Source: Arthrobacter sp. MYb214 (GTDB lineage Bacteria; Actinomycetota; Actinomycetes; Actinomycetales; Micrococcaceae). Taken from it: a stretch of DNA of 64,000 nucleotides. The DNA is taken from positions 1,054,001-1,118,000 of the forward strand of contig NZ_PCPZ01000001.1 of NCBI RefSeq assembly GCF_002979865.1. Reading direction: 5' to 3'. Position 1 is the first letter of the stretch. Each line of letters opens with the position of its first letter. Under the pieces are notes generated by a model. That model made no database searches, was not told the DNA's origin, and saw only the letters and a program-made list of their open reading frames with translations. Of the stretch, positions 1 through 35,215 are shown piece by piece. The position numbers were made by a program, and so were the translations under genes.

Positions 1-1145
1 GTGCGGGCCGCAGCATCACGACCGCCGAGGCCAAAGGCCAGAGCCGCTGCCAATGCTGCGCCAATGACGATTGCGCCGAAGGCCATGTTGATGATCGAAT
101 CGGCGATACCCATGTACTTCAGGCCCATCGCCACGAACAGCGCAATTGCCGTGTAGCGGATGATCTTCGAAGCAGTAGTGTCACCCAAGAAGCGGCCAAT
201 GACGTTGGCGATGACGAAACCTGCGGCGATAATTGCTGCGCCGAAGAGGATCTTGCCGCCCAAGGCCAGGATCTCATTGAGGATATTGGTGATCGCTGGG
301 AAGTTCAGCATCTGGGCCGCCATCACACCGAAGAACAGCACGATAGCAATCTTGACGATGCCAGCGATGATTCCCGAAGCGCTCTTGCCCTCGGGAACTA
401 CGCCCCACTGGGCAACAACAGTGTCGGTACCCACGCCGTGGAGGGAGGATTCAAGTAGCTGCCCGACGAACTTGGCAATCAGGATACCCACGGCCAAGAG
501 CACCAAGGCCATGATGACCTGCGGGATTGCGGTGAAGACCAGCTGCAGCATCTGCTGAGCAGGTACCGAAATTGCCGCGATGCCCAGAACCTGTAGGGCT
601 GATATTGCGACGACTAGCAGGATCAAGGCGAAGACGATGTTGGCAATGATGTCAACGATCTTCGCTTGGGATTCGCGAGACTGAACTTCATCTACTGGTT
701 CGTTGCCTGGGGTGACCTTGCGGACCAGTCCGCTAAAATCGACAGTTCCCAAACCGGTCCTCAGCAGCTGGCGAACAATATTCGCGATGACGTAGCCAAT
801 GAAGAAGATGAAGCCCGCACCGATGAGGTTGGGGATGAAGGCCATGACGCCGCCGAGCATGCCCTGCACCGGCGATAGCACTTCGGATAGAGCGAAGACT
901 TGCAGGATTGCCACGAGGCCGAAGAGCCAGACAATCAACCCCGCGACCTTGCCCAGGGATTGGCCTATTTGTTCTCCGTCATTGCCCTGCCTTTGCAGGA
1001 ACTTCACCCTGTTCACCAGTTTGGCGGCAGCCCAACGAACTATGCGTGCAACTAGCCACGTAATGATGAGGATGATTAGCGCGATGCCAACCTTTTGTAG
1101 CATCGACGCCCAGTCGATATTGCCTAAAACGTTCTCAGACTGCAT
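1..1145 (-). CDS. Mechanosensitive ion channel-like membrane protein (partial, 3' end off window)
   Basis: The minus-strand frame stays open from the window edge to an ATG at 1145, giving at least 381 residues. The protein is almost entirely hydrophobic, with repeated units of a long membrane helix followed by a Gly-rich turn (for example GAGFIFFIGYVIANIVRQLL near residue 110 and GAAIIAAGFVIANVIGRFLG near 320). This is the 'conserved TM helix' repeat architecture of small-conductance mechanosensitive channel relatives such as CmpX. It probably sits in the cytoplasmic membrane and responds to membrane tension, but that is family knowledge, not visible here. The C-terminus is missing only because the window starts inside the gene. 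Confidence 0.8.
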   Translation of the reverse strand, partial: MQSENVLGNIDWASMLQKVGIALIILIITWLVARIVRWAAAKLVNRVKFLQRQGNDGEQIGQSLGKVAGLIVWLFGLVAILQVFALSEVLSPVQGMLGGVMAFIPNLIGAGFIFFIGYVIANIVRQLLRTGLGTVDFSGLVRKVTPGNEPVDEVQSRESQAKIVDIIANIVFALILLVVAISALQVLGIAAISVPAQQMLQLVFTAIPQVIMALVLLAVGILIAKFVGQLLESSLHGVGTDTVVAQWGVVPEGKSASGIIAGIVKIAIVLFFGVMAAQMLNFPAITNILNEILALGGKILFGAAIIAAGFVIANVIGRFLGDTTASKIIRYTAIALFVAMGLKYMGIADSIINMAFGAIVIGAALAAALAFGLGGRDAAAR

Positions 1146-1439
1146 TGCTGCTCCTTCAACGTAGGGACAATCCGACCCTACGATGAAGGTTCTCCGCTGA
1201 CTAGGGCAAAGACCCATGCTCCCAGCTTGAATCATTGGACTTTCACAGCTCGAATTGCGAAAAGCTGACTATATCCCGATGGATTCAACGAATTCCGAAC
1301 AATAAGGCCCTACCGACAACCGATCCACGCAATATTAGAAAGTTCGCGGCTGCGTCCAAACCCGTGAATTGCCATGGAAGCTATTGCGGATTCAGCCATT
1401 GATCTTTATCAATCCGGCAATTACCGGAAGTCCCGCTAC

Positions 1440-1871
1440 CTAGTTGATGACTTCGCTCCGCACGGAAGCACCCAGTTCAACGGTGCGGGAGACGGTGCAG
1501 TATTTGTCATGCGAAAGCTTGACGATGCGCTCCACCATGCTGGCTGCCTTGCGGCCTTCCTCGGTGTCGGGGAACTTCAAATCGAAACCAAGATGAATGT
1601 CCTCCATCCGGCTCGCCGAGTTCTCAGAGACCTTGTAGCCGCCCGCTTTGACTTCGAATTTCTCAGGCTCGCTTCTCCTGGTGGTCGCCACATCAACATC
1701 AATTGCGGAACACCCTGCGATGGCAGCAAGCAGCAACTCCACCGGGGTTAGCAACCCTTCGCCCTGGCCGAATTCTAGGCTGGCTCCCGATTCGAGGCTG
1801 GTGGCCTTGTACTTGCGTGCCTCGACGCGTTCGATGCTGACTTCACGGATCTCACGGCTATTTTCACTCAT
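1440..1871 (-). CDS. OsmC family protein
   Basis: A 143-residue protein starting at MSENSREI. The frame is open further upstream, but that part overlaps the next gene, and the internal ATG at 1871 gives the normal OsmC length. Two conserved cysteines are visible, in LLLAAIAGCSAIDV (about residue 55) and HDKYCTVSRTV (about residue 123), the pair used by OsmC/Ohr proteins to reduce organic hydroperoxides. The spacing and YCTVS context look more like the YhfA/OsmC branch than Ohr. The gene lies about 30 bp downstream of the GNAT gene at 1903-2337 and may be co-transcribed with it. Confidence 0.85.
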   Translation of the reverse strand: MSENSREIREVSIERVEARKYKATSLESGASLEFGQGEGLLTPVELLLAAIAGCSAIDVDVATTRRSEPEKFEVKAGGYKVSENSASRMEDIHLGFDLKFPDTEEGRKAASMVERIVKLSHDKYCTVSRTVELGASVRSEVIN

Positions 1872-1902
1872 GAAACTATCGTGCCACGATCCAGGCTGAA
1901 GA

Positions 1903-2337
1903 CTACACGTGGCGCAATACGACTCGTTGCGGCGACGATGCAGTTTCCCCGGGCACAGGCACGAATCCGCAGTCGCCAAAGAACGCAATGGCAGGCTGGC
2001 GCTGGCAATCGAGATGAACGCTGATCCCGGGAATGCTGGCGATGATTTCATCCAGCAGTATGCGGCCCACACCCTTCTGGCGATCAGTGTGCCTCACCCA
2101 GAGCAGTTCGATGCGTGTACTGCTCCATGCCGCAAAGCCAACAATGCGTCGACCATGCTGGGCAATCCTGACTGAGACCGATTGGCTATAGACAGCTTCC
2201 AGGGCGACGGCCACCGCATCAATATCAGCAGCCGAGAGGAAGTCTCCCCGGCGTTCCACCGAACTGCGCCAAATGTCGAGCAGGTCAGGCACTTCATCCA
2301 CGCTCGACAGCTCGCGCAGCAGGAGAGTCTCTTCCAT
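1903..2337 (-). CDS. GNAT family N-acetyltransferase
   Basis: A 144-residue acetyltransferase. Motif A is recognisable around residues 83-98 (RQKGVGRILLDEII, the Q/RxxGxG/A acetyl-CoA pyrophosphate loop), followed by a beta strand and a FFGDCGF motif B near residue 120. The frame also has a TTG at 2358 and ATG at 2352, but an AAGGA element ends 7 bases before the ATG at 2337, so I take that start (MEETLLLREL). The substrate cannot be inferred. Probably in one transcript with the OsmC gene. Confidence 0.8.
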   Translation of the reverse strand: MEETLLLRELSSVDEVPDLLDIWRSSVERRGDFLSAADIDAVAVALEAVYSQSVSVRIAQHGRRIVGFAAWSSTRIELLWVRHTDRQKGVGRILLDEIIASIPGISVHLDCQRQPAIAFFGDCGFVPVPGETASSPQRVVLRHV

Positions 2338-2458
2338 GCCATATTCCTTCATGCTCAAGCGAATCCGTACTTGCTGATTCGAAATGTAGCCGGGTGCCAG
2401 CGATTCCTCAAGTTTTCATGGATCGTTGCGGCACACCAGCATGCGGTTTTTCCCCGGC

Positions 2459-3253
2459 TTAAGCCGGCTCGTTCATGCGGCCCGTGCGGTGGGCCCAGTC
2501 CCGCAATTCGGCCGCGGCCTGCTCGGGCTGCTCAAGGTGCACGTTATGCCCTGCAGAATCAAGCACGCGGATCCTCATCGAGGGGTACCGGCGCGATAGC
2601 TGCTCGGGATCCCGGTATCCGGTGATGTGGTCTTGTTTCCCGCACAGGATGGTTACCGGAATATCCAGCTGGCGTTTACGCTCCACGGGCAGAGGATCCA
2701 GGAAGTAGCGCTTGGATAGCTTGGCCATAGAGCGCAAGTTCGCGCAGTCCAGCCCGGGCAGCACCCACTGCGCGAAGCTCTGCCACGCCTGCTGCGATTG
2801 CACCACGGCAATATCGGAGAATTGCTGTGCTTGGCGGGGATCTATCCGGGCCAACAGCCCGGGATCCTCTACGACTACCTGCGCTTCGGGCACAGTGCGC
2901 CGCGAGGCATCGGGAAAGACCACTGGGGCCAGGAGGAATAGTCCTTGGGTCTGGCCGGGAAACCTGTCGGCCATCTCCTGGCAGAGCAAGGCGCCAAGAG
3001 AGTTGCCCAGCAGTGCGAACGGCCCCTCTCCCGCGGTTTGCCTGATCAGTTCCTCCAACCAGTTTGCAAGTTCTGGCAGTCCCCCGGGGTTCCCTAGCGG
3101 TGGACAGGTTCCGAAGCCGGGCAAGTCGACGTAGTGCAAGTCGAAGATCTGCGCGTTGGCCAGCTCTGCTTCCAGCGGCTTGAGGATACGGTGGTCTACC
3201 CCGTTGCCATGCACCATGAACAACGGGATCCTGCTCTTTGGCGCTACTCGCAT
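2459..3253 (-). CDS. Alpha/beta hydrolase
   Basis: A 264-residue alpha/beta hydrolase. The N-terminal oxyanion segment is MVHGNG (residues 13-18), the nucleophile elbow is LLGNSLGALL (GxSxG, Ser near 92), the likely acid is the Asp in LCGKQDHITGY (about 210) and the catalytic His lies in DSAGHNVHLEQPEQ (about 240). All triad positions are present, so it should be active as an esterase or similar hydrolase; the substrate is unknown. The frame extends to 3577, but that part is antisense-like overprinting of the YhhN gene. The ATG at 3253 overlaps the YhhN stop by 10 bases, indicating translational coupling. Confidence 0.85.
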   Translation of the reverse strand: MRVAPKSRIPLFMVHGNGVDHRILKPLEAELANAQIFDLHYVDLPGFGTCPPLGNPGGLPELANWLEELIRQTAGEGPFALLGNSLGALLCQEMADRFPGQTQGLFLLAPVVFPDASRRTVPEAQVVVEDPGLLARIDPRQAQQFSDIAVVQSQQAWQSFAQWVLPGLDCANLRSMAKLSKRYFLDPLPVERKRQLDIPVTILCGKQDHITGYRDPEQLSRRYPSMRIRVLDSAGHNVHLEQPEQAAAELRDWAHRTGRMNEPA

Positions 3254-3963
3254 TTCACCGTGCTCTTCTCCTGTGCCTCGCGCTGGCTCGCAGCGTAGCT
3301 GATCATCCATTGGCCAGCTACGTAGGTGAGCATAATCCAGAATCCCATTCCGGGGACATCGATATCCGCAAATGAGCGCAGTGCGATCAAGGAATCGGAG
3401 AGGAAGAATATTGCGCCGCCGAAGCCTGCGATCGGACCCAGCCCGGTACTGAGGATGGCCATCATCATCAATGCCAAGCCATAGATGATCACCGGGGCGA
3501 GCAGCACTCCCGCACCGGGTAAGCAGAGGACCAGCAGCAGGGCAAATGCGGCAAGATAAGGAAGCGGCATCCACCAATGGCGCAGTATCGAAGATTTCCA
3601 GTATCTTGCCAGAGCGGCGATGTAGAAGAACTGCGCAACCAGGAATGCGCTAACCATGGCCAGGAATGCAGAATCGCCGTCCATGAACCGGGGCAAGGTG
3701 TCACCGACCCAGGAGAAGAAAAGGGCTATGAGCACCAGCCGGATCAGTGTGCCACGCGGCGAGGTGGTGAGGGCGAGAACCGTTCCTGCCAACAGCGGCA
3801 TCAGCAGGATCTGCGTGGCGTCCGCCAGCAACCCCGAAGGCCAGAACAGTTGTGCCAGCAAATGGGTGGCAGTTGCGAGCAGGAGCGCCAGAGCCGCGAT
3901 CCCGCGGCGTGACTGCCCCGGGATCACCGCAACGGTGTGCTCATTGCCTAGGTGTGGTTGCAC
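3244..3963 (-). CDS. YhhN/TMEM86 family membrane protein (lysoplasmalogenase-like)
   Basis: A 239-residue polytopic protein with about eight hydrophobic segments. Conserved YhhN signatures include LFFSWVGDTLPRF (about residues 79-91), the IFFLSDSLIAL segment (about 186-196) and a C-terminal TYVAGQWMISYAAS helix. Family members such as TMEM86B hydrolyse the vinyl-ether bond of lysoplasmalogens; bacterial members are poorly characterised. The start is a GTG with an AAGGAAG element a few bases upstream. It overlaps the downstream alpha/beta hydrolase, and a lipid-related pairing is plausible but inferred. Confidence 0.8.
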   Translation of the reverse strand: MQPHLGNEHTVAVIPGQSRRGIAALALLLATATHLLAQLFWPSGLLADATQILLMPLLAGTVLALTTSPRGTLIRLVLIALFFSWVGDTLPRFMDGDSAFLAMVSAFLVAQFFYIAALARYWKSSILRHWWMPLPYLAAFALLLVLCLPGAGVLLAPVIIYGLALMMMAILSTGLGPIAGFGGAIFFLSDSLIALRSFADIDVPGMGFWIMLTYVAGQWMISYAASQREAQEKSTVKCE

Positions 3964-4023
3964 TTTCTTCCTTGGGTAGTGCCGATAATTGCGTTTAGCG
4001 GCCTCGGGGCGTTGCCGGATCCG

Positions 4024-4710
4024 TCACCGGTTGGAAGCCGACGGGGCCAGGACGCAGAATTCATTGCCCGAGCGGTCCTGGAATACCCGCCATGGCAGCG
4101 TACCCCACGGACGGTCCAGTTCCTTGCCGCCCAATGCGCAGATGATTCCCAACGCGTCCTCCATGCTCTCGGCCTGTTCGAGACGCAGGTCCAGATGGAT
4201 CGCATTCTTCCCCGCAGTCTTGGGTGAAGCTTCCCGGACAAGGACCAGCCGCGGGCCCGCGCCTGATGGATGAGCCAGAACCACTGGAGACCGCGCAACG
4301 ATGTCCCATCCCAGCAGCTGCTTCCAGAATTCTGCATCTCCGGCCGGGTCAACGCAGGCCAGTTGCAGGGCTTCAAGCACCAAGCCGCTTGCGTCCTGGT
4401 CGTGGGCACGGAGCAGAAATTCGTTGCCTGCGGCATCGAGCCTGGACTCCATGGCATCCCGGTGCCGATCGCCAAGGCGTTCGCTGAAATGGGTGCCGGA
4501 TCCGAGGATCAGGTGCACGCGCTGTTGAGCACGGTCCGGGTTCCGGACAGCGGGGAAGCACAAATCCAGGTATCGCGGTCCGGCCAGCTGCAGTCGGGTT
4601 TCATAGCCGTCGGCGTTATCGGTCAGCATCTGGCACTTGAGCAGGACCTCCCAGAATTCCCCTTGCTGTTTCGGGCTTTCGGCATCGAAGACGATATTTT
4701 CCCAGTACAT
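4024..4710 (-). CDS. VOC (glyoxalase-like) protein with two tandem modules
   Basis: A 228-residue protein made of two vicinal-oxygen-chelate modules. The first begins WENIVFDAESPKQQGEFWEVLL and the second LQLACVDPAGDAEFWKQLLG (from about residue 117), each with the beta-alpha-beta 'F-W' start. The C-terminal module ends WRVFQDRSGNEFCVLAP, the usual D-P/S-x-G-N-x-F finish. Metal-binding residues are not clearly retained in all positions, so it may be a binding or resistance-type VOC protein rather than an enzyme. It stands alone and is transcribed away from the flavoenzyme gene at 4986. Confidence 0.8.
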   Translation of the reverse strand: MYWENIVFDAESPKQQGEFWEVLLKCQMLTDNADGYETRLQLAGPRYLDLCFPAVRNPDRAQQRVHLILGSGTHFSERLGDRHRDAMESRLDAAGNEFLLRAHDQDASGLVLEALQLACVDPAGDAEFWKQLLGWDIVARSPVVLAHPSGAGPRLVLVREASPKTAGKNAIHLDLRLEQAESMEDALGIICALGGKELDRPWGTLPWRVFQDRSGNEFCVLAPSASNR

Positions 4711-4985
4711 GCTTCCAGCTTACCGCTGGGGTGATTCCGGTCACTTCGCGCATTCGTTGAACCGGCCAATAATATCCACATATGGAAATTGATTATCGTT
4801 GACTTAGGCAATGGAAACAAGAATTCTTTTCGCAGGATTTCCATAAGAATTAGTTGCAATGCTAATTTCTAACACCATGATGACATGCTTGAATTTGAGC
4901 AAGTTGTTTATCTTAGTGCCATTAATTCCAATTCCAAGATTCTCCTGGCGGAAATTGGAGCATTTTCCGCCGGTATTATGTTGCC

Positions 4986-7097
4986 ATGAGCAACACGGAT
5001 TTTCCCCACCTGATGTCAGAAGGCCGGATCGGGCCTATGAGCACCGCCAACCGCATTGTCCTTCCCGCTATGGACATGAACGTTTCCGAAGGCGGTGAAA
5101 TAGAGCAGTCGGAAATCGACCACTATGTCGCGCGTACCGCCGGCGGAGCCGGACTTGTCATCACCGGCGCATGCGCTATCGCCTTCCCTTACGGAGCGGC
5201 CTCGATGAAAGAACCGGGACTGTCAGAGGACAAATACATCCCGGGCATCAAGGCACTGGCCGACGCCATCCACGCTGCAGGCTCCAAGCTGTGCATCCAG
5301 TCCACCCACCATGGCAAGGTAGCGCGCGTAGACACCGCCAACGGACGTCCAGTCATGGCGCCGAACAAGCCGGACTACAGCTACTCCATGAGCGCGCTGG
5401 CCGACTGCACCCCCGAGGAACTCGCGAAGATGGGTGCTGCCACCAAGGGCAAGCAAGCCAGCTACCACGAGATGGCCCAAGAGGACATCGACTGGCTGAT
5501 CGCCGCATGGGCCGACGCGGCAGAACGCGTAGCCAAGGGCGGAGCAGACGCCATCGAGATCCACGCGGCGCACGGATACATCCTTGGCGTCTTCTTGAAC
5601 CAGCGCGATAATCTGCGCACCGACCAGTACGGCGGCTCGCTGGAGAACCGTGCCCGCCTGGCCTGCCAGGTCATCGCCGCCGTCAAGGAACGTGTGGGAG
5701 ATTCCTTGGCGATCCTGGTGCGCGTAGCCGGAGAGGAATACGGCCAGGAAGGCGCGTTGAACCTTGCCGAATCCATCGAGGCGTCCAAGATGTTCGAAGC
5801 CGCAGGCGCTGACGGCATCCACGTGACCGGTTGGGGACGCAACCCCTTCGACAACTTCACCGACGGGCCGCTGCCGAACAAGGTCGGGGCCTACCTGGAG
5901 AATGCCGCAGAGATCAAGAAGCATGTTTCCATTCCGGTGATCGCCGTGGGCCGCATGCTCCCGGACATTTCCGAGAAGGCGATCGCCCAGAACAAGGTGG
6001 ACTTCGCTGCCATGGGACGCCAGCTGCTGGCCGACCCGGAGCTTCCCAACAAGCTGCGCGACGGAAAGCTTGACCAGGTGCGCCCATGCATCAATTGCTA
6101 CCTGTGCGTGGCGGAGAACTTCTTCGATGACACCCCGTTCTGCGCAGTGAACCCGGCACTGGGTAACGAGAAGCTGCTGCCGTTGAAGCCGGCAAGCGCC
6201 TCGAAGCATGTGGTTGTCGTTGGCGCGGGCCCTGCGGGCATGGAGAGCGCACGCGTGCTCACCGAGCGCGGGCACCGGGTGACCATCGTCGACAAGGCCG
6301 ACCGCTTGGGCGGAACCATGTGGTTCTCCACCATGACCACCCCGGATAACGAGCGCCTGCTGCGCTGGTTGAAATCCGAGCTCAAGCGCCTGCGGGTTGC
6401 GGTGAAGCTCAATACCCCAGCCACCGCGGAAACCATCCGCGGGCTGAACCCCGACCACGTCATTGTCGCTACCGGCGCCGTGCGCCCGAAGCCGGACATG
6501 CCAGGCGGCGACCTGCCCAACGTGCAGACCGGCGACACCCTGCGCGCCATGATGCTGGGTACCGCTACAGCCGAGGAAGCCGGACTGGTGCTGAACACCA
6601 TGGGCAAGCTCGGACGGCTCTCGGGCTTGACCAAGTCCCCGGAATTCGTCCGCCAGTTCACCAAGTTCTGGCTGCCGATGGGCAAGGACGTTGTAGTCAT
6701 CGGCGGCTCGCTGGTGGGACTGGAACTGGCCGAGTTCCTGGCCGAGCGCGGCCGCAACGTCACTCTGGTCCATGAGAGCCGGCAGCTGGGCTTGCCGCTG
6801 GCCATGCCGCGCCGCTGGACCGCCGTCAAGGAGAATCTCGCGCATGGCGTCAAGATCCACCGCAATGTCTCGGTCACCCGCATCACCGAGAAGACCGTGG
6901 AATGGACCGAAGGCGAAGAGCAGTTCAGCGCCCCGGCCGACATGGTCATCTACGCCGATGGCACCACCAGTGCCGCGCCGGTAGCCGATCAACTGCGCGG
7001 TGCCGGATTCAGCGTCGATGTCATCGGCGATGCCAGTGCGGTCAACTACATCCACGGTGCCGTGTATTCTGCGTGGAAGGCCACCGCCAACCTGTAG
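4986..7097 (+). CDS. Old-yellow-enzyme family oxidoreductase with 4Fe-4S and FAD/NAD domains (FadH/TMADH-like)
   Basis: A 703-residue multidomain flavoenzyme. Residues 1-360 form an FMN TIM barrel with the substrate-binding HAAHGY motif (about 193) and DNLRTDQYGGSLENR. A Cys cluster follows at about 369-388 (CINCYLC, then 11 residues, then Cys), giving CxxCxxCx11C, which resembles trimethylamine dehydrogenase more than the CxxCxxxC of E. coli 2,4-dienoyl-CoA reductase. The C-terminal half has a Rossmann motif VVVVGAGPAGMESAR (about 407) and a second nucleotide motif VVVIGGSLVGLELAEF (about 569). The substrate could be an enoyl-CoA or an amine. It is monocistronic, followed by a strong hairpin at 7121. 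Confidence 0.88.
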   Translation: MSNTDFPHLMSEGRIGPMSTANRIVLPAMDMNVSEGGEIEQSEIDHYVARTAGGAGLVITGACAIAFPYGAASMKEPGLSEDKYIPGIKALADAIHAAGSKLCIQSTHHGKVARVDTANGRPVMAPNKPDYSYSMSALADCTPEELAKMGAATKGKQASYHEMAQEDIDWLIAAWADAAERVAKGGADAIEIHAAHGYILGVFLNQRDNLRTDQYGGSLENRARLACQVIAAVKERVGDSLAILVRVAGEEYGQEGALNLAESIEASKMFEAAGADGIHVTGWGRNPFDNFTDGPLPNKVGAYLENAAEIKKHVSIPVIAVGRMLPDISEKAIAQNKVDFAAMGRQLLADPELPNKLRDGKLDQVRPCINCYLCVAENFFDDTPFCAVNPALGNEKLLPLKPASASKHVVVVGAGPAGMESARVLTERGHRVTIVDKADRLGGTMWFSTMTTPDNERLLRWLKSELKRLRVAVKLNTPATAETIRGLNPDHVIVATGAVRPKPDMPGGDLPNVQTGDTLRAMMLGTATAEEAGLVLNTMGKLGRLSGLTKSPEFVRQFTKFWLPMGKDVVVIGGSLVGLELAEFLAERGRNVTLVHESRQLGLPLAMPRRWTAVKENLAHGVKIHRNVSVTRITEKTVEWTEGEEQFSAPADMVIYADGTTSAAPVADQLRGAGFSVDVIGDASAVNYIHGAVYSAWKATANL

Positions 7098-29053: not shown

Positions 29054-29090
29054 GTGGAACGCGACTATGCATTATCCCTGGACTCCACGA
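29054..29090 (-). repeat. Degenerate copy (R0) of the ychF 3' end
   Basis: Positions 29056-29090 align without gaps to 34121-34155, the end and immediate downstream flank of ychF, with 26 of 35 identical. The first 12 bases (29056-29067) and last 8 (29083-29090) are exact. In the ychF frame it would read VESRDNA-stop instead of VEFRFNV-stop. It is the weakest of the copies and marks a possible left border of the island. Confidence 0.5.
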
Positions 29091-29195
29091 GGTTCCGGCA
29101 CAGGCCAGCCTCTGCTCTCGCGACCTGCAATCAGACGAGCGGCGCGACCAGCGGCACCCGCACGAGCGAGTTCGCAGGCATCCGATCAGGCGTGA

Positions 29196-30527
29196 TCACT
29201 TCAGCCAGTCGCCGAGTCCGTACTGGCCGGGGACGCCGAGGTTCTCGCGCAACGTGGAGCCCACGTAGTCCTCGGGATAGAGGCCGCGTTCGCGCAGGAT
29301 CGGCACGACCTCGTCGACGAACGCGTCAACGCCGTCCTCATAGACATCGGGCGACAGCCAGAAGCCGTCGGCAGCACCGGCCTCGAACCATTCCTGCAGG
29401 TGATCGGCGTGCACCGTTCCCGGCCCCACGGTCACGGGATGGTAGTCGATCACGCCGTGCGCGAGGATGTCGCGCGGCGACCACCCCTCGCGCGCCACCT
29501 TGAGCGCGATCCCGGAGCGCGGGTCCTGCGGCGAGGCGTGAGCGCTGGCCAGCTGTTCGGGCGTGAGCGGCTTGTCGATGCGCTCGGACAGGATCGGCAC
29601 ACCGATCATCGCGCTGAGGTGCGGCAGGCGCGCCTCCATGACCTCGCCTGACATCGACAGGCGCCGGTCGAGCCCTTCGCGCACCGTTGGGGACACTGTG
29701 GTCATGATGCCGACGATGAACTTCACGTCGTCGGGGTTGCGGCCAGCTTCCTCGGCGGCCCGGCGCAGCGCCCTGCGCGCAGCGCGAGCCTCGTCGATCG
29801 TCCACACCTCCGTGATGAAGCCGCTCGCATAGCGCCCCGCCAGCTCGAGCAGATGCGGGCTCGGTCCTCCCGAGGTGAAGACGACGGGCTGCCCTTGCTC
29901 CGACGGCGGCAACGCGAGCGGCCCACGGGATGCGACGTACTCGCCGCTGAGGTTGATCGGCTGCAGCTTCGCGGGGTCGATGAAGCGGCCCGATCCCTGG
30001 TCCTTGATCCAGGCATCCATCTCCCAGCTGCCCCAGAGCGACTGCACGATCTGGATCGATTCATGGGCGCGCTGGTATCGCTCGGCCCGGTCCGCGACGG
30101 GCTTGCCGTAGTTCGACGCGACGAGCTGGTCGCTCGTCGTGACGGCGTTCCAACCGGCGCGGCCACGGCTCATGATGTCCAGCGTCTTGAACTGCCGGGC
30201 CGTGTTGAACGGTTCCTGGAACGTTGTGGACCCCGTGAGCACGAAACCGATGTTGTTCGTCGCTTGCGAGATCGCGGCCGCCTCCATGAGCGGATCCATG
30301 ATGTTGCTGACGGTCGAATGCTCCAGGCTGCCCCGCACGGCCGGGAAGTCGGGCGTGAATACGAACGAGAAGCCACCGCGCTCGGCGGCTTGGGCGTAGC
30401 GAATGTTCGCCTCGACCTTCGAGTAGTTTCCAGGGTCGACGTGCGGTGCCCGCCAGGCACCGGGCAGGGTGCCGTAGCCGTCAGTCAGCGCCAAGCCGAG
30501 AATCATCTTGCGTTGTTCCTTGTCCAT
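29196..30527 (-). CDS. NtaA/SnaA/DszA-type FMN-dependent monooxygenase (luciferase-like)
   Basis: A 443-residue flavin monooxygenase. Family marks are MILGLALTDGYGTLPGAWR (about residues 8-26), IGFVLTGSTTFQEPFNTARQFKTLDIMSRGRAGWNAVT (about 92-129) and VVFTSGGPSPHLLELAGRYASG (about 214-235). It needs reduced FMN from a partner reductase, which is not encoded nearby; substrates of relatives include nitrilotriacetate and dibenzothiophene sulfone. I chose ATG 30527 over 30566. Its base composition is visibly richer in GC than the flanking genes, consistent with transfer. A MerR regulator is divergent, and near-identical dyads lie before both genes. Confidence 0.85.
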   Translation of the reverse strand: MDKEQRKMILGLALTDGYGTLPGAWRAPHVDPGNYSKVEANIRYAQAAERGGFSFVFTPDFPAVRGSLEHSTVSNIMDPLMEAAAISQATNNIGFVLTGSTTFQEPFNTARQFKTLDIMSRGRAGWNAVTTSDQLVASNYGKPVADRAERYQRAHESIQIVQSLWGSWEMDAWIKDQGSGRFIDPAKLQPINLSGEYVASRGPLALPPSEQGQPVVFTSGGPSPHLLELAGRYASGFITEVWTIDEARAARRALRRAAEEAGRNPDDVKFIVGIMTTVSPTVREGLDRRLSMSGEVMEARLPHLSAMIGVPILSERIDKPLTPEQLASAHASPQDPRSGIALKVAREGWSPRDILAHGVIDYHPVTVGPGTVHADHLQEWFEAGAADGFWLSPDVYEDGVDAFVDEVVPILRERGLYPEDYVGSTLRENLGVPGQYGLGDWLK

Positions 30528-30542
30528 GGAACCATCATCGAA

Positions 30543-30562
30543 CATTGACATCCATGTAAAGG
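30543..30562. promoter_or_regulatory. Candidate MerR operator upstream of the monooxygenase
   Basis: CATTGACATCCATGTAAAGG fits the dyad CCTTnACATnnATGTnAAGG with one mismatch. It lies 15 bases upstream of the monooxygenase start, and overlaps a minus-strand TTGACC (30561-30566) that could be the -35 element. It is nearly the same as the site at 30676. Confidence 0.6.
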
Positions 30563-30675
30563 TCAAATTACCTTGCCTGCAGGCCCGCGGACTCTGGCAC
30601 CATGGCCGATTGCGCGCAGCCTGCGGGCGGATTCGATGAGGGCTGCCGTGGCCGGGAGGCAGTTCCGACCCGTAT

Positions 30676-30695
30676 CCTTGACATGGATGTGAAGG
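30676..30695. promoter_or_regulatory. Candidate MerR operator overlapping the merR ribosome-binding site
   Basis: CCTTGACATGGATGTGAAGG matches the dyad CCTTnACATnnATGTnAAGG exactly. It contains a perfect TTGACA at 30678 and overlaps the AAGGAG ribosome-binding site of the MerR gene, so binding here would be expected to repress the regulator gene. Confidence 0.6.
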
Positions 30696-30704
30696 AGAAC
30701 GGGA

Positions 30705-31064
30705 ATGCGGATCGGCGAGCTGGCCAATCGAACTGGGGTGCCCACGCGCATGCTCCGGTACTACGAGGAGCAGGGACTCATCACGCCGCTGCGGCTGGAG
30801 AACGGGTACCGCGACTACGACGAGTATCTCGTGGAGCGCGTGCTGAAGATCCGCAGGCTGCTCGACTCAGGGGTCCCCACCCGGATCATCCGCGACATGC
30901 TGCCGTGCCTGAACGACATTGGCAGCACGATCGTTGCCGATCCCGATCCTGAACTGCGCGCGATGCTCGTCGATCAGCGCGACAAGCTGGCCGAGCGCAT
31001 CGTCCTGCTCCAGCAGAACCGCGACGCGCTGACGCGATACATCGACGCGATGGATCACGCCTGA
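30705..31064 (+). CDS. MerR family transcriptional regulator
   Basis: A 119-residue regulator. The winged helix-turn-helix is MRIGELANRTGVPTRMLRYYEEQGLITPLR (residues 1-30), the wing is NGYRDYDEYLVERVLKIRRL and a coiled-coil dimer helix covers about 78-115 (LRAMLVDQRDKLAERIVLLQQNRDAL). There are no C-terminal metal cysteines, only one Cys at about residue 67, so it is a small-molecule sensing or repressor type. GAAGGAGA precedes the ATG. The divergent monooxygenase and the matched dyads at 30543 and 30676 make it the likely controller of both genes. Confidence 0.87.
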   Translation: MRIGELANRTGVPTRMLRYYEEQGLITPLRLENGYRDYDEYLVERVLKIRRLLDSGVPTRIIRDMLPCLNDIGSTIVADPDPELRAMLVDQRDKLAERIVLLQQNRDALTRYIDAMDHA

Positions 31065-31443
31065 CTTCCGCACGCACAAGGTGCCGGAGAATCCCGTCCT
31101 CTGCGGGGCCTGATCGGCAGGGCAGCTCCTTGCGCGCCGCGGGCAGTGGCCGCAGGGAGCTCAGGCCGATACTTGAGTGCCCATGAACTCAACAGGTCCC
31201 TAATCGCGCTTCGGGGCTCCACCCAAGTAAGAGCTCTAGAGCGCACGGCGGAGTCCGACCGGAATGCCTCGCGGATCCGGCTCCCAGACAGTCGGTTAGA
31301 TCGCCGTAACGCGGGGCCTGGTGCCTTAGCCTGCTTGCGGCGTTGCCCCATAAGGGAAATGGCCCATGCACCTTGAACGGCATCGCTAATGTGGAGGAGC
31401 TTTCCTTCCGGCGCCACTTCGTGATGAATCAAGGGCACGATGC

Positions 31444-31483
31444 AAAAAATCGCCCCCGGCTCCAAGAGAAACCGAGGGCGATT
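31444..31483 (-). terminator. Intrinsic terminator of the NUDIX gene, left of repeat R1
   Basis: On the minus strand AATCGCCC pairs with GGGCGATT, with an inner CGG/CCG pair, and six T residues follow. It lies 12 bases left of repeat R1 and 58 bases downstream of the NUDIX stop. This is a classical rho-independent signal. Confidence 0.8.
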
Positions 31484-31495
31484 GAGACATGAGAA

Positions 31496-31519
31496 TTACA
31501 CGTTGAAGCGGAACTCCAC
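31496..31519 (-). repeat. Copy R1 of the ychF 3' end (24 bp)
   Basis: Reading on the minus strand, positions 31496-31519 are identical to the end of ychF from TACACGTTGAAGCGG through ACTCCAC (23 of 24 bases; the stop is TAA rather than TAG). It would encode VEFRFNV-stop. It is probably a recombination-site remnant separating two modules. Confidence 0.75.
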
Positions 31520-31541
31520 CGAGTTCTGGCACGAAGTAACC

Positions 31542-31988
31542 TTAGAGATCGCCATCGATACCGATGCTGCCAAGTCGCGCGCCAAAGCCAGCACAGAGAA
31601 CGTGGGCATCGCTCAGCTTCATCCACCAGCACGTCCAGCTGACCGGTTGCCCGCCGTCAGATGCATCGTTCTCACCGCACTTCCACCTAACTTGAACGTC
31701 CGAGTCCACCAGCTCAAGTTGAAAGAAGTGCCGTTCGTGCACCTCAGGCTTCGCAGGCCACATGTCGTACGACTCGACGCCCAGCGAGCGAACGATCCTG
31801 GCTGCGAGGCCGGTCTCTTCCCCCACCTCGCGCACGACGGCATGCGCAGGCGACTCGCCCTCGGCGATTGACCCAGCGGGCACCTGCACACCAGTGACTT
31901 CCACCGGGTAATCGTCGTGTGTGAACACGAGCAGGTTTCCGTCGTGGACGACGTACCCGACTGCCTTTTTGACCGAACGTCTACTCAT
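31542..31988 (-). CDS. NUDIX hydrolase
   Basis: A 148-residue NUDIX protein. The NUDIX box is AGSIAEGESPAHAVVREVGEETGL (G-x5-E-x7-R-E-V-x-E-E-x-G, about residues 37-60), with all metal-binding acids intact. It starts MSRRSVKKAVGYVV at ATG 31988, without a strong ribosome-binding site; the frame is open to 32024. The substrate (nucleotide diphosphate or similar) is unknown. It lies between repeats R1 and R2 and is probably part of an inserted module. Confidence 0.87.
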   Translation of the reverse strand: MSRRSVKKAVGYVVHDGNLLVFTHDDYPVEVTGVQVPAGSIAEGESPAHAVVREVGEETGLAARIVRSLGVESYDMWPAKPEVHERHFFQLELVDSDVQVRWKCGENDASDGGQPVSWTCWWMKLSDAHVLCAGFGARLGSIGIDGDL

Positions 31989-32027
31989 GCTCACGATGGT
32001 ACAGCTTGTTGTACGGCAGACCACACC

Positions 32028-32516
32028 GTGCGTTTGAATCCCCTAGATTTGGGGCAGCCTTTGTTCTCGACTTCCGATTTACCCGACGATACGCGTTGGA
32101 CTCTGAGATCAGACCAGCGAGAGTGGGATCACTTCATTCGCCTGCTAGGCAAAGCACTGTCGGAGAATCTCAGACATTCGGCTTTCGATGCAGCGGGCGT
32201 TCCAGGGAAAAACGACACGAGCCAGCATCCATTCGGGACTATTGGACGTCTTCAAGAACTCATGACCATGAATCATGTGACTCCGGAACAAACGGAGCGG
32301 GCTGTCACGCCTCGCAAGTTGGTGAGGTCGGCTCGCCAGAAACCGGCGCACGCGCTACGCAAGAACGTGACTGACCGCACTCTAGTTCGGAAGTAGGCGG
32401 ATCTGCTCCGATTCGTAAATGAAGTTCTGGTCAACATACGACAGTGGCTATCGAGTCAACCCAAGAATAAGGACTGGGAAGAAAACTGGCCGGACGCTAA
32501 CGACTACTTCCTCTGA
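32028..32516 (+). pseudogene. Decayed hypothetical gene with an in-frame stop
   Basis: The plus-strand frame has a hydrophilic, protein-like sequence (for example WTLRSDQREWDHFIRLLGKAL) that reaches a TAG at 32394-32396. The same frame continues without interruption for another 39 codons (ADLLRFVNEVLVNIRQWLSS, later DWEENWPDANDYFL) to TGA 32514-32516. The second part looks as natural as the first, so a single nonsense change in an old gene is likely. No clear start was found and no family is recognised. It sits inside the R1-R2 module. Confidence 0.4.
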
Positions 32517-32566
32517 CGCCTTCAGCCAGCGATCAACGCCGATCTTTGGCACAGACATGGCGCAAA

Positions 32567-32603
32567 GGGCAGTTTGACACATTTATTTTGTGTCAAACTG
32601 CCC
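32567..32603. terminator. Perfect 15-bp hairpin left of repeat R2
   Basis: GGGCAGTTTGACACA (32567-32581) pairs perfectly with TGTGTCAAACTGCCC (32589-32603) around a 7-base A/T loop. Neither side has a long U-tract; the plus-strand flank is CAAAAAG. It ends 25 bases left of repeat R2, the same arrangement as at R1 and the native ychF end. Confidence 0.7.
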
Positions 32604-32628
32604 TCAAAAAGCGCGGGATTGCGCGCAA

Positions 32629-32667
32629 CTACACGTTGAAGCGGAACTCAACCACGTCGCCGTCCTT
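32629..32667 (-). repeat. Copy R2 of the ychF 3' end (39 bp)
   Basis: Minus-strand reading gives KDGDVVEFRFNV-stop, identical to the YchF C-terminus over all 12 residues. At DNA level it differs from the native end at 34130-34168 at only a few positions (GTG-GTT versus GTC-GTG), all silent. Silent divergence indicates an origin in a ychF gene of a related strain rather than recent duplication. Confidence 0.85.
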
Positions 32668-32795
32668 ACCAACCTCTCAGTACCCGGCGAATCCCCGAAG
32701 CGTCGACCCTCTCCTGGCCCAGCGAACACCAAACTCGCCGAGCAATTAGGCAACCCAGGTTGACATCCGGCCACTTAGCAACATAGGTTGACGAC

Positions 32796-33041
32796 ATGGA
32801 GTCTCCGCGGATCGCAGCAGTAGCAGCCGATACCAGCGACCCGAAAGCAGGATTGCGGGCCGTAGCGTCCTTGCGCGTGCTCGCTGACACCTTGGAACTC
32901 CGGCAGGTCGAGGCCGCGTTGCGTTCGGGCATGAGTTGGCAGGAGATCGCCGACGCGCTCGGAGTGACGCGACAAGCTGCCCACAAGAAGCACTCCAAAA
33001 GAATTGACCCCGCGATCTCGACACCCAGGAGGAACAAATGA
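32796..33041 (+). CDS. Small HTH protein (sigma-70 region 4-like)
   Basis: An 81-residue protein with a DNA-binding segment EAALRSGMSWQEIADALGVTRQAAHKKHSKRI (about residues 39-70), a helix-turn-helix close to sigma-70 region 4 or phage regulators. The first half is a helical stretch of unknown role. Its TGA overlaps the ATG of the Clp-N/SRPBCC gene (ATGA), so both are made from one mRNA. This order (tiny HTH then Clp-N protein) recurs in actinobacteria. It likely regulates its own module. Confidence 0.75.
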   Translation: MESPRIAAVAADTSDPKAGLRAVASLRVLADTLELRQVEAALRSGMSWQEIADALGVTRQAAHKKHSKRIDPAISTPRRNK

Positions 33042-34027
33042 ACAAACTCGTCCGCGCCGCTCAGACCAGCCAATCGCTTTCCCTGGCCGCCATGGAGGAA
33101 GCATCCCGGCTCGGGCTCCGCGAAGCCGACATCGACCACCTGTTCCTCGCATTGGTCATCAACGACCAGTCTGCCGGCTGCGCACTGCGCGAGCTGGGTA
33201 TCGACATTGACAGCGCCCGTCTCGCCGTCGAGGACCAACGTGATGCACAGCTGACTTCACTCGGCATCGAGGCGTCGTTCCCCGAGGCCGGGCGCATCGT
33301 GTTCCATGAGACGGATGGGTACGAGTGGACTCGTCGCGCTCGGGACCTCATCGCGAAATCCAGCAGCAAAGGCAAGTCGGGCGACGCTGCCGCCGTTCTC
33401 CGGGAACTCGTCGCAGAGCCCAGCGGCCTGATCACGGATATCCTCGGCCGCCTTGGCACGACATCCGATGCGCTCATCGAACGCCTCGATCGGGCCGTCT
33501 CGCCCTCTATGAAGTCCATGCCCCTCGCAGCGAAAGTGAAGGGACGGACCACGGGAACGATTGAGACTTTCGTATCCGCACCACTGGACGAAGTGTGGGC
33601 GTACCTCACAGATCCCGCACGTATCCCCGACTGGGAACCGAGCATCGGCACCCTCGACCAGACCGCTCAAGAAGCGATGCCGGGTACGGTCTGGGAGGGC
33701 ACGGCACCCGCAATCTATCCAGACGGCAAACCTGTGAAGATCAAGCCTCAGTTTCGTCGACGCAGTGTTGAGCTCATCGCAATTCACCAACCGGACAGGA
33801 TCGCATGGAGCTTTGGCTATCCCGACGTCGCGCAGGGTAATTCGATTCTGACTGAATTCACCTTGGCGAACGCGACCGGTGGCACACAGCTGCGGATCAG
33901 CAGGTCCTGGTCGCGACGCCAAGGGTGGCGAGGACTTGTCGCATGGCCGCTGCGTCCAGTCCAGAAGTTCCTGGTGTGGATCACCCTGTTCCAGACCGGC
34001 AGCGCGATCAGCCGAACATTTCGCTAG
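33038..34027 (+). CDS. Clp N-domain / SRPBCC fusion protein
   Basis: A 329-residue two-part protein. Residues 1-150 form two Clp_N repeats (AAQTSQSLSLAAMEEASRLGLREADIDHLFLALV and the later EWTRRARDLIAKSSSKGK...AVLRELVAEPSGLITDILGRLG), the substrate or adaptor-binding part of ClpA/B/C. There is no AAA ATPase domain. Residues about 172-329 are an SRPBCC/START-like ligand-binding domain (TIETFVSAPLDEVWAYLTDPARIPDWEPS). It is coupled to the upstream HTH gene and lies between repeats R2 and R3. A ligand-gated anti-activator or an adaptor is possible; nothing proves either. Confidence 0.85.
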   Translation: MNKLVRAAQTSQSLSLAAMEEASRLGLREADIDHLFLALVINDQSAGCALRELGIDIDSARLAVEDQRDAQLTSLGIEASFPEAGRIVFHETDGYEWTRRARDLIAKSSSKGKSGDAAAVLRELVAEPSGLITDILGRLGTTSDALIERLDRAVSPSMKSMPLAAKVKGRTTGTIETFVSAPLDEVWAYLTDPARIPDWEPSIGTLDQTAQEAMPGTVWEGTAPAIYPDGKPVKIKPQFRRRSVELIAIHQPDRIAWSFGYPDVAQGNSILTEFTLANATGGTQLRISRSWSRRQGWRGLVAWPLRPVQKFLVWITLFQTGSAISRTFR

Positions 34028-34068
34028 TCCCAGGCACGGCGACTCGCCTGCTGGTCGCACATAGATCA

Positions 34069-34102
34069 AGTGCCCGGATCTCCACAGGGAGATCCGGGCA
34101 CT
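34069..34102. terminator. Perfect 15-bp hairpin downstream of ychF
   Basis: AGTGCCCGGATCTCC (34069-34083) pairs perfectly with GGAGATCCGGGCACT (34088-34102) around a 4-base loop. It lies between the convergent Clp-N gene and ychF and can terminate both. No U-tract is visible. Confidence 0.8.
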
Positions 34103-34129
34103 CGAGCGGGACACTGAAGCGGAACGCGA

Positions 34130-34168
34130 CTACACGTTGAAGCGGAACTCCACGACGTCGCCGTCCTT
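34130..34168 (-). repeat. Native ychF 3' end (R3), proposed integration site
   Basis: The last 39 bases of ychF. Related copies occur at 32629 (39 bp), 31496 (24 bp) and, degenerate, 29054. A partial echo of the same sequence (ACTGAAGCGGAAC) also lies at 34112-34124, just outside the stop codon, which may mark an older recombination edge. Confidence 0.8.
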
Positions 34169-35215
34169 CATGATGTATTCCTTGCCTTCGATGCGGGCCT
34201 TGCCCGCAGACTTGGCATTAGCCACCGAACCAGCGGCAACGAGGTCTTCGAAGCCGATGACCTCGGCCTTGATGAAGCCGCGCTGGAAGTCGGTGTGGAT
34301 GACACCGGCTGCCTCAGGCGCGGTGGCGCCCTTGGCGATGGTCCATGCGCGGGTTTCCTTCGGGCCAGCGGTCAGGTAGGTCTGCAGGCCCAGGGTGTCG
34401 AAGCCGACGCGGGCCAGCTTGCCCAGGCCGGACTCGACGATGCCGGCATCTTCCATCATTTCGGCCGCTTCGTCTTCTTCCAGTTCAGCCAGTTCGGATT
34501 CGAACTGGGCATCCAGGAAGATCGCCTCGGCAGGGGCAACCAGCTCGGAGAGCTTGGCCTGCATCTCGGTATCGGCCAGGCCAGCCTCATCGGTGTTGAA
34601 CACGTAGATGAATGGCTTGGTGGTCATCAGCTGCATCGGCGCGAGCTCTTCAAGGTCCACGCCCTTGGTCTTCGCGGCGGCGAACAAGGTGATGCCTTCT
34701 TCGAGCACCTTCTGCGCGTTGAGCACTGCGTCCAGGAACGACTTCTCGATCTTCTTGGTGCGCAGTTCCTTTTCCAGGCGAGGCAGCTGGTTCTCGATGG
34801 TCTGCAGGTCCGCGAGGATCAGCTCGGTAGCGATGGTCTCGATATCCGAGGCCGGGTCCACCTTGCCGTTCACATGGATCACGTCGTCATTCACGAATGC
34901 GCGGGTGACCTGGCAGATCGCATCAGCTTCGCGGATGGTCGCCAGGAACTTATTGCCCAGGCCTTCGCCTTCCGAAGCGCCCTTGACGATGCCGGCGATA
35001 TCCACGAAGGAGACGGTCGCAGGCAGGATGCGCTCGGAATTGAAGATTCCGGCGAGCACCTTCAGCCGCGAGTCAGGCAACGGCACGACACCCACATTGG
35101 GTTCGATGGTTGCGAACGGGTAGTTGGCTGCCAGCACCTGGGCACGGGTCAGCGCGTTGAACATGGTGGACTTGCCGACGTTTGGCAGTCCGACGATTCC
35201 GATAGTAAGAGCCAC
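34130..35215 (-). CDS. ychF: Redox-regulated ATPase/GTPase YchF (Obg family)
   Basis: A 361-residue Obg-type P-loop protein of standard length. G1 is GIVGLPNVGKSTMFNALT (about residues 6-23), switch regions include VSFVDIAGIVKGASEGEG (G3, about 68-85), and a TGS domain closes the protein (AWTIAKGATAPEAAGVIHTDFQRGFIKAEVIG...KDGDVVEFRFNV). The G4 reads VFNTDE, as in YchF, which prefers ATP. It is a highly conserved ribosome-associated regulator. The C-terminal codons serve as the apparent target of the inserted modules to the left; the encoded terminus is unchanged. Confidence 0.95.
   Translation of the reverse strand: MALTIGIVGLPNVGKSTMFNALTRAQVLAANYPFATIEPNVGVVPLPDSRLKVLAGIFNSERILPATVSFVDIAGIVKGASEGEGLGNKFLATIREADAICQVTRAFVNDDVIHVNGKVDPASDIETIATELILADLQTIENQLPRLEKELRTKKIEKSFLDAVLNAQKVLEEGITLFAAAKTKGVDLEELAPMQLMTTKPFIYVFNTDEAGLADTEMQAKLSELVAPAEAIFLDAQFESELAELEEDEAAEMMEDAGIVESGLGKLARVGFDTLGLQTYLTAGPKETRAWTIAKGATAPEAAGVIHTDFQRGFIKAEVIGFEDLVAAGSVANAKSAGKARIEGKEYIMKDGDVVEFRFNV

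Follow-up and report, generated by a model that had tools for sequence, protein, structure and literature searches.

The window analysed here is a 64,000-nucleotide stretch of the genome of Arthrobacter sp. MYb214, a relative of Glutamicibacter (contig NZ_PCPZ01000001.1, positions 1,054,001 to 1,118,000 of the forward strand), and the system in question is an array of three small gene cassettes behind the 3' end of ychF, separated by copies of that end (Table 1). Genomes, contigs and loci used for comparison are given as G, C and L numbers.

Copies of the ychF end in the window

The last 39 bases of ychF (34130-34168) were repeated at 32629-32667 with 2/39 differences, both silent and in Val codons, leaving the encoded tail KDGDVVEFRFNV unchanged, and a further copy at 31496-31519 matched over 24 bases, both as stated in the original prediction. 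The copy at 32629-32667 stood, with one correction to its length: AAGGAC, which extends it to 39 bases, probably arose in parallel, as G001 has AAGAGC at the end of this cassette. The degenerate copy proposed at 29054-29090 is probably real, because its upstream arm (29114-29092, minus strand), unseen until now, fits the arm of the cassette ends. A hairpin had also been proposed beside each copy; two were computed (34066-34105 and 32566-32604), and the other two were seen by eye alone.

Cassettes ended in a common arm of ~25 bp, followed by the ychF end. An arm matrix was built without the window's own sites, and scored 26.0 bits at 32678, 23.7 bits at 31545 and 20.7 bits at 29114 (minus strand), the next-best place in the window being at 10.3 bits. 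As 1 of 20 mononucleotide-shuffled windows got to 21.7 bits, the arm alone is inconclusive. The site model, run across the whole genome of the window at E up to 0.01, gave four matches, every one in this array. Neither PF00589 nor PF00239 matched anywhere in the window, in agreement with the claim that the modules between the copies have no integrase.

Table 1. Features of the ychF array. Positions are those of the window; cassette coordinates run centre to centre of the sites.
Feature	Position	Strand	Basis
ychF, target gene	34130..35215	minus	ORF (open reading frame) and translation
ychF end, putative attB-type site, central GT 34153-34152	34130..34168	minus	Copy comparison, site model; crossover position favoured by junction comparisons
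Junction site, cassettes 1/2 (arm + ychF-end half)	32622..32678	minus	E = 1.9e-15, whole genome
Junction site, cassettes 2/3	31489..31545	minus	E = 1.4e-14, whole genome
Degenerate fourth site with preserved arm and decayed ychF half	29054..29114	minus	20.7 bits; E = 0.002, whole genome
Cassette 1, 1501 bp	32652..34152		Site model
Cassette 1 gene, 329 aa (amino acids), Clp_N + AHSA1/polyketide-cyclase-like domains	33038..34027	plus	Pfam
Cassette 1 gene, 81 aa, weak HTH (helix-turn-helix) match under curated cut-off	32796..33041	plus	Pfam
Cassette 2, 1133 bp	31519..32651		Between second and third sites
Cassette 2 gene, NUDIX domain protein	31542..32024	minus	Pfam
Cassette 3, ~2.43 kb	29088..31518		Between third and fourth sites
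Cassette 3 gene, MerR-type regulator	30705..31064	plus	Pfam
Cassette 3 gene, luciferase-like monooxygenase	29196..30566	minus	Pfam

Plasmid genes similar to the luciferase-like monooxygenase of cassette 3 were annotated as NtaA/DmoA family, among the matches listed. In G017 (C10:15738-15944, in L038), 69 aa of a diverged YchF C-terminus (67% identity) are encoded ~2 kb behind ychF, a fragment longer than the other copies seen.

Cassettes behind ychF across actinomycetes

The site model was run on 21 genomes (18 of the genus and 3 of other genera) and gave 83 matches. On the contig and strand of ychF, within ~41 kb, were 79 of the 83, including ychF's own end (18/79); the remaining four were elsewhere (G001 had two, and G015 and G005 one each, that of G005 weak). 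At least one copy beyond ychF's own was present in 13/18 genus genomes, with a maximum of 10 (G005 and G010), and none was found at the site-model threshold in G007, G008, G011, G013 and G014. Gene order behind ychF was not conserved. For 245 family genomes the filters were stricter than in the 21-genome search, and ychF usually counts as one match; two or more matches were found in 129, at least three in 73, at least five in 25 and none in 5. An exact pattern, which is strict and undercounts, was found in 78 stretches, some sharing one genome, of a one-genome-per-species collection (84,980 species). The genera included Microbacterium, Brevibacterium, Brachybacterium, Kocuria, Cryobacterium, Gordonia, Rhodococcus, Mycobacteroides, Nocardioides and Tessaracoccus. 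The cassette architecture behind ychF is present across actinomycetes.

Cassettes were defined as 150 to 6000 bases between successive sites. The loci read held 273 cassettes, 229 once near-identical ones were removed, with a median size of 1254 bp (middle half 815-2036, range 221-5940) and mostly 1-3 genes each. ORFs were predicted with a simple purpose-made caller, so that counts are approximate, and a few stretches contain conserved chromosomal genes: 456 ORFs fell into 276 clusters (206 singletons), 303 on the same strand as ychF and 153 on the opposite one, and 17 cassettes had no predicted ORF. The largest clusters (32 and 23 members) were two partner genes, HTH_3 by Pfam, which we take to resemble HigA and HigB. 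The domain scan covered 248/270 cluster representatives of at least 50 aa, and acetyltransferases, TetR, glyoxalases, MFS, PIN, HepT and ParE were among the families listed (25 per tally). PADLOC matches included AbiE, AbiD, PrrC, TIR-type and Mads proteins. Cargo classes included toxin-antitoxin, defence, acetyltransferase and metal-resistance genes.

Two side observations concern individual units. The cassette at L051:12378-15139, which encodes an ArsR-type regulator together with a P-type ATPase (E1-E2_ATPase), was also the first cassette in L165 and L156, with 99.5-99.6% identity in three genomes from three families. A conserved three-gene block, with HipA-like and phosphoglycerate-mutase-like members by eye, sits between array sites (L056:13818-15854, L053:5504-7540 and, reversed, L065:9578-11617), so arrays extend past chromosomal genes.

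Near-identical cassettes were compared with the identity of ychF in the same genomes. Glutamicibacter ardleyensis (ychF 89%) carries cassette 1 of the window at position 1 with 99.2% identity and cassette 2 at position 3 with 99.3%, and cassette 1 was 93% identical in Microbacterium ihumii (ychF 71%). Between the window and G010, the ychF end with cassette 1 matched at 99.0% and cassette 2 at 98.9% (ychF 89%), and G010 had an additional GNAT-TetR module of ~1.4 kb. A first cassette of 3.1 kb was common to G001 and G005 (99.8%; ychF 90%). Cassettes 1 and 2 were shared across families by Rarobacter faecitabidus and Microbacterium mitrae (99.6 and 99.8%; ychF 71%), and this cassette 1 recurred at position 6 in G181 (99.5%). 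These identities show that cassettes pass between species and families. Repeated site-specific insertion, each newcomer bringing a fresh end, was the central claim of the original prediction and is suggested by the comparison, as the same modules were at differing positions from genome to genome and the G010 module was placed exactly between sites.

Cassette 1 of the window had a further copy away from ychF, flanked by sites at both ends and next to genes that resemble cytochrome oxidase genes by eye (L217:3449-4917, G001 contig C1). Relatives differed across a longer stretch in the empty-site comparison, and a secondary insertion is possible. The same possibility applies to a HigBA-like pair with a ychF-end-like site directly behind an acyl-CoA-synthetase-like gene, also by eye (L218:3460-4106, G015 contig C5).

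Serine integrases at ychF and the cassette arm

Large serine integrases (LSR; Resolvase + Recombinase domains, PF00239 + PF07508) were found behind ychF in the elements of G009 and G016, and not in the window array; the window holds cassettes, not a serine-integrase island. The YchF tail was changed in G009, G016 and G013. With the G016 integrase as query (E <= 1e-30), matches were found in 31/240 family genomes, and in 18/31 the gene shared a contig with ychF and lay 0.06-36 kb downstream of it (G016, G009, G144, G258, G070, G032 at 58 bp, G214, G074, G116, G133, G183, G225 at 36 kb, G239, G230 with a partial gene, G168, G234, G260 and G210). The locus of G204 was split over contigs, yet its YchF tail was changed. 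The integrase was on a different contig from ychF in seven genomes (G017, G003, G117, G025, G029, G033 and G167), where nearness is not strictly excluded, and far from ychF on the same contig in G065, G158, G152 and G151. That of G154, 20 kb downstream past array sites and almost the same as in G117 and G152, was not counted as ychF-adjacent. A quick tree of 29 integrases of unequal length, indicative only, had one branch parting 18 ychF-adjacent integrases from 11 others (G204 counted among the former, G230 omitted as too short). The site model was applied to 14 of the ychF-adjacent genomes (all except G168, G234, G260 and G210) and gave no match at E <= 0.001 in the interval from ychF to the integrase; G074 had one at E = 0.008. 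More sites were found behind the element in G016, G144, G258, G070, G074, G183, G133 and G230, and the integrated elements span ~12-58 kb from ychF to the next site. Mobility in trans had been proposed for the modules, and such elements at ychF in other species agree with it; the moves themselves we infer. Absent from the original prediction were the common arm of the cassette ends, the serine integrase, the size of the arrays and their spread across actinomycetes.

The cassette arm was compared with the changed ychF tails. Where an integrase is present, the changed tail to the right of GAG, once reversed, fits the arm of the small cassettes: the reversed tail in G016, G225 and G230 is CAGAGGTTATTCCGTGCCGGAACTC, and the majority arm of the cassettes is CAGAGGTTGGTAnGTGCnGnAAC. 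The ATTCCGTG form likewise ends cassettes, e.g. at L053:4056. For the test, the inner eight bases, common with ychF, were omitted and the outer 17 bases were scored, with uncorrected shuffle p values. The outer bases fitted the arm at p < 0.03 in 18/20 changed-tail genomes (including G013, without an integrase there), or in 14/16 when counted as distinct arms. As a control, 0/48 distinct intact tails fitted (best -15.7 bits vs up to 19.6). The arm was also present at the presumed far end of the G016 element (E = 1.4e-5), and hybrid att sites made from the ychF end were found at element borders. Given the fit between the cassette arm and the inverted repeat of the ychF tail acquired in LSR genomes, the cassette junctions (P + ychF half) are read as attR-type, and look like attR sites of a ychF-specific LSR. 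The deduced attP would be P-GGTG-P', with two inverted arms of ~25 bp.

To locate the crossover, junctions were taken whose two sides each recur elsewhere in other combination, and the switch point was placed between them; 363 junctions gave 42 with both partners, 41 of them distinct and 33 with good fits. In 21/33 the switch could lie at -3 to -1 before GAG, which places it around the central GT, the best-supported position. For the window junction it falls within GGT. These comparisons favour the central GT as crossover point, without proving it.

Alternative YchF tails from integrase elements (HGITSA.QGKK and TGLTSGSKK; L037, L047, L101, L103, L112, L113, L117 and L197-L205) were mutually similar, and the YchF tail looks as if under selection. 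The displaced ychF tail VEFRFNV forms the end of an ORF that follows the integrase at L047 (G009), ArdA-like by eye and located +11710 to +12058 relative to the ychF stop.

Other drivers and carriers were considered and rejected. No tyrosine integrase (PF00589) was found inside the ychF arrays of the 21 genomes, and this driver was rejected. In six of the 18 genus genomes PF00589 matched just twice, presumably to XerC and XerD. All of these except G007 carry arrays (G003, G004, G005, G006 and G012), which can thus exist at present without a dedicated tyrosine integrase. For phages, the strict exact pattern had no match in viral contigs, and phage serine integrases were at most 29.5% identical among the matches listed (15 of 224). 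For plasmids, the matches listed (15 of 152) covered cassette 3 and no other part of the window array.

Proposed mechanism, alternatives and related systems

The array is probably (at roughly 0.7, by our estimate) a ychF 3'-end array of integrase-bounded cassettes, resembling both the staphylococcal cassette chromosome (SCC) and integrons, and served in trans by ychF-targeting LSR elements. The LSR link of the cassette ends is well supported; that integrases move cassettes today is our inference. The ychF end would be the attB (B-GT-B') of a large serine integrase family. On integration of an element, ychF would gain a new tail (B-P') and the far end would become P-B'. The small cassettes likewise end in P-B' (attR-type), and ychF in these genomes is still B-B'. 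By the route we favour, an element at ychF would leave by attL x attR, and excision via a more distant attR would carry the first cassettes along. Element and cassettes would then integrate at the attB of a new host, and a later exit by the nearest attR would deposit the cassettes beside an intact ychF end. Cassettes would consequently need no integrase, and arrays would grow on the ychF side. Only two textbook reactions are needed for such a route, attB x attP and attL x attR. It would explain the integrase-less cassettes, the P-B' junctions, the B-B' ychF and the travel of neighbours as blocks. An integron equivalent on serine integrases, in which integrase-less, attR-bounded cassettes gather at ychF across the actinomycetes and LSR elements carry the first ones from host to host, is proposed tentatively, at somewhat less than even odds.

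Several results weigh against trans-acting LSR elements or against this route. The integrase was found in just 31/240 family genomes, far fewer than have arrays, and the query search (E <= 1e-30) gave no member of the integrase clade in the window genome. Tails of the ychF-adjacent integrase genomes G032 and G210 do not fit the arm, nor do the YchF tails of L066, L156, L186, L193, L194 and L195, which are of VEFRFAV type and normal length. An intact attP was not seen, no phage contig had the site by the strict pattern, and neither recombination nor a circle was observed. Twelve of the 33 junctions were off the GT (by 1, 1, 1, 4, 6, 8, 10, 10, 10, 10, 19 and 19 bases), which could come from mutation or homologous recombination. 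Partner choice also matters: the G012 ychF junction was at the GT with one partner set and at +18 to +21 with another. Recently shared cassettes preferred position 1 weakly (38/55 pairs vs ~54% expected; pairs non-independent, some genomes present twice). The comparison of G258 and G144 for passenger transport was ambiguous, G144 lacking a site before the common gene.

The same integrase could act by a direct route, a free P-B' circular cassette being inserted in trans into the ychF attB, as thought for ccr-less SCC. Single cassettes at position 1 in many genomes and two cassettes at non-ychF places with site-like borders fit this, whereas a two-cassette block common to two hosts at 99.6-99.8% does not. 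The reaction would moreover pair attB with an attR-like hybrid, and orthodox serine integrases pair attB with attP; we regard this route as unlikely, if less so than the alternatives that follow. Homologous recombination between the ~50-bp repeats might account for present shuffling and loss, the ends having been made by an integrase long ago. Most genomes lack an integrase match, the window and G010 are consistent with precise loss, and the 12 off-GT junctions point the same way; the GT as best-supported switch place, and near-identical cassettes at different positions and in different families with ychF at 71%, make it improbable. Movement by XerC/XerD, as for pdif modules, would suit the arrays in the five genomes with only two PF00589 matches, and is very unlikely in view of the match of the cassette arm to the inverted arm found in serine-integrase elements. 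Old gene-end duplications lacking mobility agree with the degenerate state of some copies, and are scarcely credible against congeners with differently filled loci and 99% identical cassettes where ychF is 71-90%.

For the preferred reading, of cassettes served in trans by LSR elements, known systems were compared. SCC are moved by a large serine recombinase with the housekeeping-gene end restored, and occur as tandem elements, some without a recombinase. A restored target gene end and tandem recombinase-less units, as in SCC and pseudo-SCC, are found in ychF arrays. The SCC target is the orfX/rlmH 3' end, here it is ychF, and the ychF arrays differ further in their actinomycete hosts, units of ~1.25 kb with 1-3 genes, at most 10 extra copies per genus genome and a rarely found recombinase. 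Integron arrays hold small cassettes with toxin-antitoxin and acetyltransferase cargo, inserted beside a fixed point. Small cassettes of diverse cargo beside a fixed point, here ychF, are the likeness to integrons, including integrase-less attC clusters. Unlike integrons, ychF arrays have serine-integrase type junctions, genes on both strands and no IntI-type tyrosine integrase beside them (PF00589, 21 genomes), and the sites look unlike attC by eye. The pdif modules of Acinetobacter plasmids are reported to be likewise small, recombinase-less and moved in trans; the ychF arrays are chromosomal, at one locus and with a serine-integrase type junction. Toxin-antitoxin genes are among the contents of pdif modules. 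By what defines membership, ychF arrays appear to belong to none of SCC, integrons and pdif modules, which are nearest in working.

No account of ychF 3'-end cassettes was found in the open-licence PubMed Central text, which is without the supplementary tables of integrase surveys, and the available part of one such survey does not mention ychF. The one use of ychF for attachment found in the text searched is in pneumococcus, where prophages attach at an intergenic site upstream of ychF; the likeness is the locus, and the difference that it is not the 3' end. If true, the proposed reading would make ychF a general actinomycete gene-capture locus comparable to integrons, an integron-resembling arrangement seemingly on different machinery, with defence, toxin-antitoxin and metal-resistance genes carried between families. 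The ychF end would be a fixed address for listing mobile genes in any actinomycete genome. The reading also offers a testable idea of integrase-free cassette movement and a set of serine integrases sharing one target.

An actinobacterial island at a gene 3' end is PAISt of Streptomyces turgidiscabies, which reportedly excises in modules via an internal repeat. It resembles the ychF arrays in these respects and differs in its tyrosine recombinase, its bacA target and its large size.

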